Shown here: positions 58,977-61,586 of the stretch, piece after piece
Position numbering within the stretch: position 1 is the stretch's first letter
How the letters are laid out: each line of letters starts with the position of its first letter
Source of the DNA: Mesohalobacter halotolerans
Lineage (GTDB): Bacteria > Bacteroidota > Bacteroidia > Flavobacteriales > Flavobacteriaceae
NCBI RefSeq assembly: GCF_006120725.1
Contig: NZ_SWMU01000003.1
Span: 434,001-498,000, forward strand
Direction of reading: 5' to 3'
Length of the DNA: 64,000 nucleotides
Notes under the pieces: generated by a model
Told to the model about the DNA's origin: nothing
Databases searched by the model: none
Seen by the model: the letters and a program-made list of their open reading frames with translations, nothing else
Position numbers and translations under genes: made by a program

Positions 58977-59966
58977 ATGAAATCACTGAATAGCAAAATA
59001 CTCAAATCATTGGATGATAAGACTTTCAACGAATTAAGTCTAGAAGTATTTAGCTATCAATATGAGAATTGTTCTGTCTACAGACAGTTTTGTGAACTTC
59101 TTAAAAAATCACCACAAAATGTCAATGAACCAGAAGCTATCCCTTTTCTTCCTATAGAATTTTTCAAAAGCCATAAAATTTTATCAAGCCAGAAGCCTGT
59201 CCAAAAATCCTTCACAAGTAGCGGAACAACCGGCAGCCAGACGAGCAAACATCACATAACCGACCTTAGACTATATGAAGATAATTCTACAAGGATATTC
59301 GAGAAATTTTATGGCCCGGTAGAAGATTATTGTATTTTGGCTCTGCTTCCCTCCTATCTTGAACGCGATGGATCCTCTTTGGTTTACATGGTAGATCATT
59401 TCATCAAAAAAAGTAATAATTCTGAAAGTGGTTTTTATTTGAATAACCATGAAAAACTTTATCGGAAATTGATTTCACTTGAAAATAAATCTCAAAAGAC
59501 ACTCTTGATTGGTGTTTCATTTGGACTGCTTGACTTTATTGAAAAATACAAGCTTAATCTCAATCACACCATTGTAATGGAAACCGGAGGCATGAAAGGA
59601 AGACGAAAAGAAATGATAAGGGAAGATTTACACGACAGACTCAAAAAAGGTTTTGGTGTTCGGTCAATTCACAGCGAATACGGCATGACCGAATTACTTT
59701 CGCAGGCTTATTCGAAAGGTGCAGGAATCTTTGATTTACCTGATACCATGAAAATTTTAATAAGGGATCCCGAGGATCCTTTGATGCTATTTTCAAAATA
59801 TAATAAAACAGGTGGCATTAATGTAATAGATCTTTGTAATATGAATTCTTGTTCCTTCATTGCGACACAAGATCTTGGGCAGAAAACAAATGATAATACA
59901 CTAAAAATTTTAGGCAGATTTGATCACAGTGATATCAGAGGTTGCAATTTATTAACCTTGAATTAA
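58977..59966 (+). CDS. LuxE-like acyl-protein synthetase family protein
   Basis: A 329-aa protein of the LuxE/PaaK-like branch of the adenylate-forming enzymes. The phosphate-binding loop SSGTTGSQTSKH (about 81-92) is clear, as are LPIEFFKSHKI (about 59-69), GVSFGLLDFIE, the METGGMKGRRKEM segment and HSEYGMTELLSQAY (the adenylate motif YGMTE). LuxE activates fatty acids for the luminescence reductase; stand-alone homologues in Bacteroidota must act on another acid, probably joining it to a carrier or coenzyme A. No luxCD or lux genes are nearby. Start ATG at 58977, four nucleotides after the upstream terminator's T-run. Confidence 0.86.
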   Translation: MKSLNSKILKSLDDKTFNELSLEVFSYQYENCSVYRQFCELLKKSPQNVNEPEAIPFLPIEFFKSHKILSSQKPVQKSFTSSGTTGSQTSKHHITDLRLYEDNSTRIFEKFYGPVEDYCILALLPSYLERDGSSLVYMVDHFIKKSNNSESGFYLNNHEKLYRKLISLENKSQKTLLIGVSFGLLDFIEKYKLNLNHTIVMETGGMKGRRKEMIREDLHDRLKKGFGVRSIHSEYGMTELLSQAYSKGAGIFDLPDTMKILIRDPEDPLMLFSKYNKTGGINVIDLCNMNSCSFIATQDLGQKTNDNTLKILGRFDHSDIRGCNLLTLN

Positions 59967-60015: not shown

Positions 60016-60023
60016 TATATTTG
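60016..60023 (+). promoter_or_regulatory. -7 box (TATATTTG) of the first 36-nt element
   Basis: Exact TAnnTTTG match ending 8 nt before the repeat unit at 60032. A TTG lies 15 nt upstream (59998-60000), a little close. Predicted transcription start about 60030. Confidence 0.45.
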
Positions 60024-60030
60024 CAGTCTA

Positions 60031-60100
60031 GGATGAAGTTTTTCATAATAGATTGGTTAGTTAATGCAAAGCCCCGATATTATTCGGGGCTTTGTTATTT
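60031..60100 (+). ncRNA. Candidate small RNA or micro-ORF, copy 1 (36-nt element plus terminator)
   Basis: The 36-nt unit 60032-60067 is identical to 60220-60255. It begins with a small hairpin (ATGAA / TTCAT around GTTT) and is followed at once by a strong terminator stem AAAGCCCCGA / TCGGGGCTTT (60068-60093) and GTTATTT. With the -7 box upstream this defines a transcript of about 70 nt. An ATG at 60033 opens a frame beginning MKFFIIDWLVNAKPRYY, but its stop (60147-60149) lies beyond the terminator. RNA and peptide are both possible; the RNA reading is favoured for this copy. Confidence 0.45.
60032..60067 (+). repeat. 36-nt direct repeat, copy 1
   Basis: Identical over 36 bases to 60220-60255, 188 nt apart. 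Similarity continues in part upstream (shared TCTAG) and into the terminator stem (shared CCCCGA / TCGGGG). Confidence 0.95.
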
Positions 60101-60219
60101 AAAATCAATTTATTTATCAATTTATTTAAGCTCGCAATTAAAGTACTAACCAGCTTGGGATGTTAAAGTTTGTTAATGAATGTAATAATTCAGGTTTCTG
60201 CTCGTATTTATAATCTAGA

Positions 60220-60255
60220 GATGAAGTTTTTCATAATAGATTGGTTAGTTAATGC
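60220..60255 (+). repeat. 36-nt direct repeat, copy 2
   Basis: Second identical copy. At the place of the copy-1 promoter box it reads GTATTTAT, which is not a good -7 element. Confidence 0.95.
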
Positions 60256-60294
60256 GAGACCCCGATTCTTTTGAGTCGGGGTTTTGTTATTTTA
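60220..60294 (+). ncRNA. Candidate small RNA or micro-ORF, copy 2 (36-nt element plus terminator)
   Basis: The repeat is followed by a 10-bp terminator stem ACCCCGATTC / GAGTCGGGGT with TTTT loop (60259-60282) and TTTGTTATTTT. The ATG at 60221 opens a 17-codon frame MKFFIIDWLVNARPRFF with TGA at 60272-60274, inside the hairpin. Compared with copy 1 the differing codons give Lys/Arg, Tyr/Phe and Tyr/Phe, conservative exchanges that hint at coding. The promoter box is degenerate, so expression is uncertain. Confidence 0.4.
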
Positions 60295-60308
60295 GTCACT
60301 CGTTACAG

Positions 60309-61586
60309 CTATTCAAACTTAATCACGTAAGTATACTTTTTACCTTTATTAATTAAGACGTATTGGTCATTAATAAGGTCTTTTTCAGAAATCATGTAAT
60401 CCTTCTGAACTTTTTCTTTATTGACGGCAATAGCATTTTGCTTTAAATTTCTTATAGCTTCGCCGTTAGATTTCAAAAACTCTGATTCTGCTACAATGGC
60501 ATCGACAATATTGAGACCACTGCTCAGCTTAGCTTTAGATATTGTTGATTTTGGAACTCCATCAAAAACTTCATTAAAAGTTTTTTCATCCAGGTTTTTA
60601 ATATCTTCAAAAGTGCTCTTACCAAAAAGTATATTGGTTGCTTTTTGAGCAGTTTCCAAATCTTTTTTAGAGTGGACACGTTTGGTAATTTCTTCTGCCA
60701 GGGTTCGTTGTAATAGCCTTAAGTGAGGCGCTTCTTTGTGTTTTTCTATTAGATCTGAGATTTCATCTTTCCCACGAAGACTAAATATCTTGATGTACTT
60801 TTCAACATCTTCATCGGTCGCATTGATCCAGTATTGATAAAACTTAAATGCTGATGTTTTTTCAGCATCCAACCAGACATTACCTCCTTCAGATTTCCCA
60901 AATTTAGACCCGTCGGCTTTTGTAATCAAAGGTGTTGTAAGCGCAAAAGCTTCTCCTTGTCCTTTACGTCTAATCAATTCAGTACCGGTAACAATATTTC
61001 CCCACTGGTCTGAACCACCGAGTTGTAATTTTACGTTTTTGTGTTTCCAAAGGTGATAAAAATCGTACCCTTGAACCAACTGGTATGAAAACTCTGTAAA
61101 AGACAAACCACTATCCAATCTGGATTTTACAGAATCTTTAGCCATCATATAATTCACCGTAATATGCTTACCAATATCTCTAATAAATTCTAAAAAATTA
61201 AACCCTTTAAACCAGTCGTAATTATTAACCACTTCAGCTGCATTATCTCCTTCAAAATCTAGAAACTTTTCAAGCTGAGATTTTACAGCGGCCAAATTAT
61301 GCTGAAGGGTTTCTTCATCTAAAAGATTTCTCTCTGCAGATTTTCCAGATGGATCACCAACCATACCTGTTGCGCCACCGACAAGCGCTACAGGTTTATG
61401 CCCACATCTTTGAAAATGTACTAAAATCATAATCTGTACAAGATTTCCTATGTGAAGGGAATCTGCTGTAGGATCAAAGCCTATATAAGCTGAAGTTATA
61501 CCTTTATTTAAACAGTCTTGAGTCCCAGGCATCATATCGTGTATCATACCTCGCCATTGCAATTCTTGTATAAAATCTTTTACCAT
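60309..61586 (-). CDS. tyrS: Tyrosyl-tRNA synthetase
   Basis: A 425-aa class I aminoacyl-tRNA synthetase of the bacterial TyrRS type. The HIGH-like motif is HIGN (45-48, PTADSLHIGNL), the KMSKS-like motif is KFGKS (about 229-233, KADGSKFGKSEGG), and the LQLGGSDQWGNI segment recognises tyrosine. The C-terminal S4-like domain (about 355-425, LSSGLNIVDAIV to GKKYTYVIKFE) binds the tRNA. Standard length. Encoded alone on the minus strand, convergent with the 36-nt elements; no T-box or attenuator is seen upstream. Confidence 0.96.
   Translation of the reverse strand: MVKDFIQELQWRGMIHDMMPGTQDCLNKGITSAYIGFDPTADSLHIGNLVQIMILVHFQRCGHKPVALVGGATGMVGDPSGKSAERNLLDEETLQHNLAAVKSQLEKFLDFEGDNAAEVVNNYDWFKGFNFLEFIRDIGKHITVNYMMAKDSVKSRLDSGLSFTEFSYQLVQGYDFYHLWKHKNVKLQLGGSDQWGNIVTGTELIRRKGQGEAFALTTPLITKADGSKFGKSEGGNVWLDAEKTSAFKFYQYWINATDEDVEKYIKIFSLRGKDEISDLIEKHKEAPHLRLLQRTLAEEITKRVHSKKDLETAQKATNILFGKSTFEDIKNLDEKTFNEVFDGVPKSTISKAKLSSGLNIVDAIVAESEFLKSNGEAIRNLKQNAIAVNKEKVQKDYMISEKDLINDQYVLINKGKKYTYVIKFE

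Follow-up and report, generated by a model that had tools for sequence, protein, structure and literature searches.

In Mesohalobacter halotolerans, two identical 36-nt units lie between tyrS and a LuxE-like gene, and the locus raises the question of what these units encode and what their product might do. To our knowledge, trans-acting small RNAs have received little study in Flavobacteriaceae. The family itself is called understudied in the available part of PMC9723704. Coordinates refer throughout to the window, the whole 64,000-nt stretch of DNA that was analysed.

Organisation of the gap

A repeat search placed the units at 60032-60067 and 60220-60255, at a spacing of 188 nt. They form the identical first 36 nt of a direct repeat which extends over 47 nt at 94% identity, and a second repeat, at 60084 and 60276, is the 3′ arm of a terminator. 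The conserved upstream neighbour is a gene for a LuxE-like acyl-protein synthetase (58977-59966, + strand; Pfam PF04443, E 1.8e-12), which falls far under the NCBIfam equivalog cut-off for LuxE (41 vs 550 bits). The conserved downstream neighbour is the convergent tyrS (60309-61586, − strand), recognised by NCBIfam TIGR00234 (405 bits, cut-off 113.8) and Pfam PF00579. An earlier sequence-only reading had described two identical units between these genes, and both the repeat search and the gene calls bear this out.

The first predicted RNA (copy 1), of ~70 nt, spans 60028-60100 of the + strand on the basis of the repeat and the fold. It is matched at 60028-60106 (contig positions 494028-494106) by R1, a covariance model built from 35 copies. 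A sigma-A type −7 box, TATATTTG, lies at 60016-60023 on the same strand and agrees perfectly with TAnnTTTG, as had been claimed, which gives a predicted start near 60028. In the predicted fold, a 5′ mini-hairpin (AUGAA/UUCAU, 60033-60046) precedes the unpaired invariant core GATTGGTTAGTTA (60051-60063), presumed to be a seed or binding site. This is followed by an intrinsic terminator (60066-60100), assigned by fold and covariation, with a stem at 60066-60095 and then a U-rich tail.

The second predicted RNA (copy 2), of ~78 nt, occupies 60213-60292 of the + strand according to the repeat, the fold and synteny, with an R1 match at 60216-60298. Fold and alignments place its invariant core, also GATTGGTTAGTTA, at 60239-60251, and its intrinsic terminator at 60254-60292 was identified by terminator scan and fold. 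The TAnnTTTG box is absent upstream of copy 2. An ECF-sigma-like promoter, TGTAAT-N16-CGTA, is found at 60181-60206 (+ strand), an imperfect form of TGTAAG-N15-17-CGAC/CGTC.

Hairpin and terminator together fold at −24.8 kcal/mol in copy 1 and −26.9 kcal/mol in copy 2, with z-scores of −4.3 and −5.8 against shuffled sequences. The 5′ mini-hairpin alone is at shuffle level (−2 kcal/mol, z +0.6). The terminator scan detects copy 2 only, the terminator of copy 1 being visible only in the fold. Across the whole window, Rfam yields a single match at the gathering score, to a tRNA outside the gap.

Coding or noncoding function

The two units almost certainly belong to small noncoding RNA genes whose products would be ~70-80 nt long, and both would be expected to be transcribed. 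A duplicated small RNA had been proposed before. This proposal gained support, and the RNA proved in addition to be multicopy in the genus, syntenic in the family and associated with two promoter classes.

The alternative offered alongside it was a micro-peptide beginning MKFFIIDWLVNA, and the frame is indeed open from 60033 and 60221. A T-run in the loop nevertheless changes that frame. Among 49 unique genus copies which keep ATGAAG, the run comprises five T (30 copies), six T (18) or seven T (1), shifting the frame MKFFIIDWLV while the surrounding nucleotides are fixed. Of the 49 copies, 18 would read MKFFHNRLVS and then stop, and the sequence ahead of the core differs in other genera. A peptide gene was rejected because the reading frame is not kept across homologues, and this alternative is now so improbable that it can be set aside.

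A further reading reduces the locus to a conserved terminator serving the convergent LuxE-like and tyrS genes, with the remainder passive. The site between convergent genes would suit such a role. The highest conservation, however, lies 5′ of the terminator, the U-run 3′ of each stem is seen by eye on the + strand only, some copies are found away from both genes, and a promoter motif is present upstream. A terminator function alone is therefore very unlikely, and the units are treated below as small-RNA genes.

Distribution within the genus

The genus, called Psychroflexus here, was represented by 27 genomes including that of the window. When the genomes of 100 relatives were searched with the 321-nt gap, 25 genomes of the genus, out of 26 besides that of the window, gave strong matches. 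R1 finds the RNA in 26 of the 27, the missing genome being only 52% complete. At E <= 1e-4 there are one to six copies per genome, a count that omits six weaker R1 rows, and 21 of the 26 genomes have more than one. Several copies form pairs or triplets, 140-330 nt apart. Matches of the 36-mer in a named collection were to an uncultured Psychroflexus and a Flavobacteriaceae bacterium, and the genus name used here rests on them.

In the alignment of genus copies, the stretch from the hairpin to TAGATTGGTTA is nearly invariant. The terminator, in contrast, varies but keeps its pairing. For each of its nine predicted pairs, one or more of 35 copies carries changes in both partners, and a given pair is broken or gapped in no more than eight of the 35. 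At two loci (L019 and L025) the terminator is quite different. The five pairs of the 5′ stem barely vary in the genus, so covariation gives no test of this stem.

The identity of the units had been attributed to selection or to very recent duplication. The pair of window copies recurs in genome G026 (92% over 322 nt), and G013 and G010 each contain the identical 36-mer. For this reason, selection on the RNA would explain the identity better than very recent duplication, the part of the earlier claim that does not stand.

A second fixed site of the small RNA, between an O6-methylguanine methyltransferase-like gene and a gene for a 476-aa protein without Pfam or NCBIfam match, was observed in 11 genus genomes (loci L033-L037, L039, L041, L044, L049, L050 and L053). 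Two genus copies have prophage-like neighbours, which include a gene for a DUF5675 protein at L088 and are similar at L093, so phages may have moved some of the copies.

A family-wide locus at tyrS

R1 was run over 397 genomes of the family, of which 95 were matched at E <= 0.01, three of them from the genus. The proposed covariance-model search thus recovered relatives in other Flavobacteriaceae. Within 1.5 kb of the best 27 non-genus loci, tyrS is present in 25 and luxE in 20, and at least one of the two in all 27. Forty weaker matches (E 2.4e-4 to 3.6e-3), a part of those listed, were also read; 24 are at tyrS, and the 16 away from it are counted as noise or other RNAs.

A check independent of the model took tyrS from 35 genomes regardless of the RNA. 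Among the 29 loci read from other genera, 18 have the core beyond the 3′ end of the gene, on the strand opposite to it (L348 is doubtful), and 11 are without it.

The core reads TTGGTT(G/A)GTTAGTTAGTT in a family alignment of 53 rows, the invariant form being GAUUGGUUAGUUA in the window and UUGGUUGGUUAGUUAGUU elsewhere. Six relatives were folded, and each has a terminator as well as a hairpin ahead of the core. The core is partly paired in two of the six (L172 and L177), and L206 gives an ambiguous best fold.

A second and weaker model, R2, with three base pairs only, gave matches at E <= 0.01 in 58 out of 296 genomes from the order. Six of the 30 R2 loci read are at tyrS, namely the window's own, two of the genus and three of other genera, all within the family. 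Among these 296 genomes and 30 loci, R2 gave no convincing locus beyond Flavobacteriaceae. The comparison of loci places the home of the RNA family in the gap between the LuxE-like gene and tyrS and indicates that the family is old within Flavobacteriaceae. Copy 2 is the nearer one to tyrS and is probably ancestral.

Twenty loci gave no Rfam match at the gathering score. The exact 36-mer and the GGTTGGTT form of the core are both absent from the viral collection. One viral match to a degenerate core (L233) adjoins a tRNA-like stretch and has no terminator by eye, and was not taken as a phage copy.

A second RNA-like element was seen in five other genera, away from tyrS (L204, L210, L243, L254 and L257, near position 1500). 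It consists of a GGGGTGGTTCCC hairpin, TTTTCATAATTTAAAG..TTTGGTTGGTTA and a terminator, and has no Rfam match at the gathering score.

Promoter classes and a candidate ECF regulon

The strict motif TGTAAG-N15-17-CGAC/CGTC lies upstream of 34 of 51 syntenic copies and is missing in the other 17, compared with a mean of 0.005 in 200 dinucleotide shuffles. A loose form is present at 42 of the 51 loci vs a shuffle mean of 0.77. In the available part of PMC9723704, a −10 CGT box of F. psychrophilum (SM6) is assigned to an ECF sigma factor. The TGTAAG/CGAC motif is read as an ECF promoter because of that assignment. The motif is mostly CGAC, not CGT, and both its −35 half and the correspondence of CGAC to the CGT box are our own reading.

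The TAnnTTTG box, which spans −12 to −5 according to the same partial source (PMC9723704), marks the other class. Among 60 unique genus copies with a full upstream region, 47 are preceded by a sigma-A box, either TAnnTTTG or TAnnTTCG, six by an ECF-like motif, one by both and six by neither as judged with the patterns used. Copy 1 belongs to the sigma-A class and copy 2 to the ECF-like class, the latter in imperfect form (TGTAAT, CGTA). The ECF-like genus copies are those on the tyrS or luxE side, a location which fits the ECF-like promoter as the ancestral state. It is accordingly regarded as likely that an ECF sigma factor controls the ancestral copy.

Upstream of the ECF-like promoters in the genus, TTAA occurs as a direct repeat with a spacing of about 11 bp (10 bp for the window), seen by eye at L001, L002, L003, L004, L009 and L060, as if it were the site of a response regulator.

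The exact form TGTAAG-N16/17-CGAC was sought in four other genera, where 18 matches vs 40 for the reversed pattern show no overall enrichment. Three of the 18 are promoters of the small RNA itself (L266, L272 and L275), and three, in three of the four genera, precede Spond_N genes with a type IX sorting tail. Two precede a gene for a 300-aa protein without Pfam match, which looks like an outer-membrane protein. One precedes a gene for a TonB receptor (SusC-like) and one a Crp-like gene. The remaining eight either have no gene start downstream or fall within a long frame. A regulon is nevertheless likely because the same genes recur behind the motif in different genera.

The Spond_N genes with the motif of the small-RNA type (L265, L274 and L280) adjoin an HMGL-like gene, identified by Pfam in L265 and by eye in the others.

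It is tentatively proposed that the tyrS-anchored RNA of Flavobacteriaceae, under an ECF sigma factor which also drives type-IX-sorted surface proteins, may act as the noncoding branch of a regulon that remodels the surface. In Psychroflexus, the copies would then have been amplified and most of them rewired to housekeeping promoters. If this is true, a switch of promoter class among paralogues of a small RNA is in progress in the genus. In the literature, which could be searched by words and not by sequence, no description was found of an RNA with tyrS/luxE neighbours, its locus across the family or its amplification in Psychroflexus.

Comparison with known small RNAs

No Rfam family fits the tyrS RNA. 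Flavo-1, which had been suggested for comparison, is found neither at the gathering score nor among 34 Rfam matches with E up to 10. The units belong to a small-RNA family that is real and conserved and matches no Rfam model; it is probably an overlooked regulator and perhaps one of the cell surface.

FopS, which represses SusC mRNAs in Bacteroides according to the part of PMC11697453 available, is the RNA that invites closest comparison. Its model, RF04319, gives a full-length match under the cut-off, 23.3 and 19.9 bits against a gathering score of 56. None of the 27 genus genomes reaches this cut-off, and membership of FopS was rejected on these scores. A diverged lineage of the multicopy Bacteroides family was also considered. 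The sub-threshold match is full-length, and about 2% of 2000 shuffles (39 for the window, 33 for the G057 copy) align as well to the FopS seed. As in FopS and GibS, the RNA is multicopy and has a conserved core followed by a terminator (PMC11697453 and PMC7366714, each in part). Yet the RF04319 matches listed include one copy of the tyrS-RNA family (G018, 23.8 bits). When 13 better or similar matches were read, 10 were found to oppose an ATG which opens at least 60 codons, so in the genus this model chiefly detects the opposite strand of start regions. The family-wide core GGUUGGUUAGUUAGUU is moreover unlike FopS, and common descent is considered improbable.

Other features set the tyrS RNA apart from FopS, namely the different core, the home at tyrS and the ECF-like motif. 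By the FopS criterion, a 5′ single-stranded seed is directly followed by a terminator; in the window copies an unpaired core leads into a terminator, but with a 5′ hairpin ahead of the core. As described in the accessible parts of the sources, GibS and FopS have different promoter classes (PM2 vs sigma-ABfr), and the copies of the tyrS RNA likewise fall into two.

Rfp11 (THC0290_N_0107) of F. psychrophilum is described in the available part of PMC9723704 as a structured small RNA that other species conserve and that is transcribed from a sigma-ECF promoter of the SM6 type, with a CGT box. The likeness, compared by description only, would lie in the promoter, the ECF-like motif here being mostly CGAC. 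Rfp11 could be an orthologue of the tyrS RNA. If it adjoins tyrS and has a GGTTGGTTAGTTA-like core, the family has already been seen as a transcript in F. psychrophilum.

Several paralogues are likewise known for Qrr, LhrC and the Cia-dependent small RNAs (PMC11697453, in part). These belong to other phyla, whereas the tyrS RNA shows one syntenic ancestral copy.

Putative targets and mode of action

The core is the most conserved part of the RNA and should be its working part. MicA and RybB are small RNAs of the envelope sigma-E response in enterobacteria, which repress the mRNAs of porins and outer-membrane proteins. The tyrS RNA resembles them in its proposed logic only, in which an envelope sigma factor activates a small RNA and this represses outer-membrane mRNAs.

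When the core was paired with translation starts of its own genome, three TonB/SusC starts paired better than all 49 genes of the window, and the start of another SusC gene (L133) paired poorly. Across the genus, 46 starts of SusC homologues gave a mean of −7.1 kcal/mol vs −5.8 for 191 control starts (p 8.6e-5), the SusC starts being non-independent, with one common leader motif in 26 of the 46, and some of them doubtful. The SusC pairing was equalled by seven of 200 shuffled seeds, compared with 150 for the controls. The first 40 nt of the RNA, used as the query for SusC starts, gave no discrimination. The antisense pattern AACCAATN{2,9}ATGAAAAA has 109 matches in the 27 genomes, of which 61 are copies of the small RNA. 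The other 48 exceed the control with the reversed pattern (19), and no recurring target gene appeared among the few of these that were read.

In the proposed mechanism, the home copy would be read by an ECF-type sigma factor. Most Psychroflexus copies, including copy 1 of the window, would be transcribed from housekeeping promoters, giving a constant as well as a regulated supply. The core may pair with the translation-start regions of mRNAs for SusC-type transporters and thereby lower their translation. The RNA might in this way supply the repression within a response of the envelope or of secretion, comparable to FopS acting on SusC or to MicA and RybB acting on porins. Pairing with surface-transporter mRNAs is the leading mechanism, put forward tentatively, because of the analogy to FopS and a promoter motif common to secreted surface proteins. 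As an account of the whole, small-RNA genes with two promoter classes and repression of SusC form the best explanation, one thought reasonably probable.

A rather unlikely alternative is that the core, as GGUU-GGUU-AGUU-AGUU, acts as a protein decoy. It would bind an RNA-binding protein (for example an RRM protein of the RbpB type) and titrate it from the SusC leader GGCUAAUUC. The core is repetitive and similar in sense to the leader motif of those 26 SusC-homologue starts. Multiple copies would fit titration, as would the failure to find a clean conserved target. The likeness between core and leader is however short, about nine of 12 positions by eye, and may be due to chance.

Control of surface transporters by pairing is the leading candidate mechanism. 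A conserved RNA with a fixed address, a defined core, a candidate sigma motif and natural gain of copies makes its regulon testable in laboratory flavobacteria. It would add a second small-RNA system beside that of Bacteroides, in a phylum which does not rely on Shine-Dalgarno initiation.

The leader motif of those 26 genus SusC-homologue starts is GGCTAATT, often TTGGCTAATTCAAATAAA, and is located just 5′ of the ATG, within 40 nt. It was recorded at loci L131, L289-L292, L294, L296-L298, L300-L302, L304, L308, L309, L311, L313-L316, L318, L319 and L321-L324, and resembles the core of the small RNA in the same sense.
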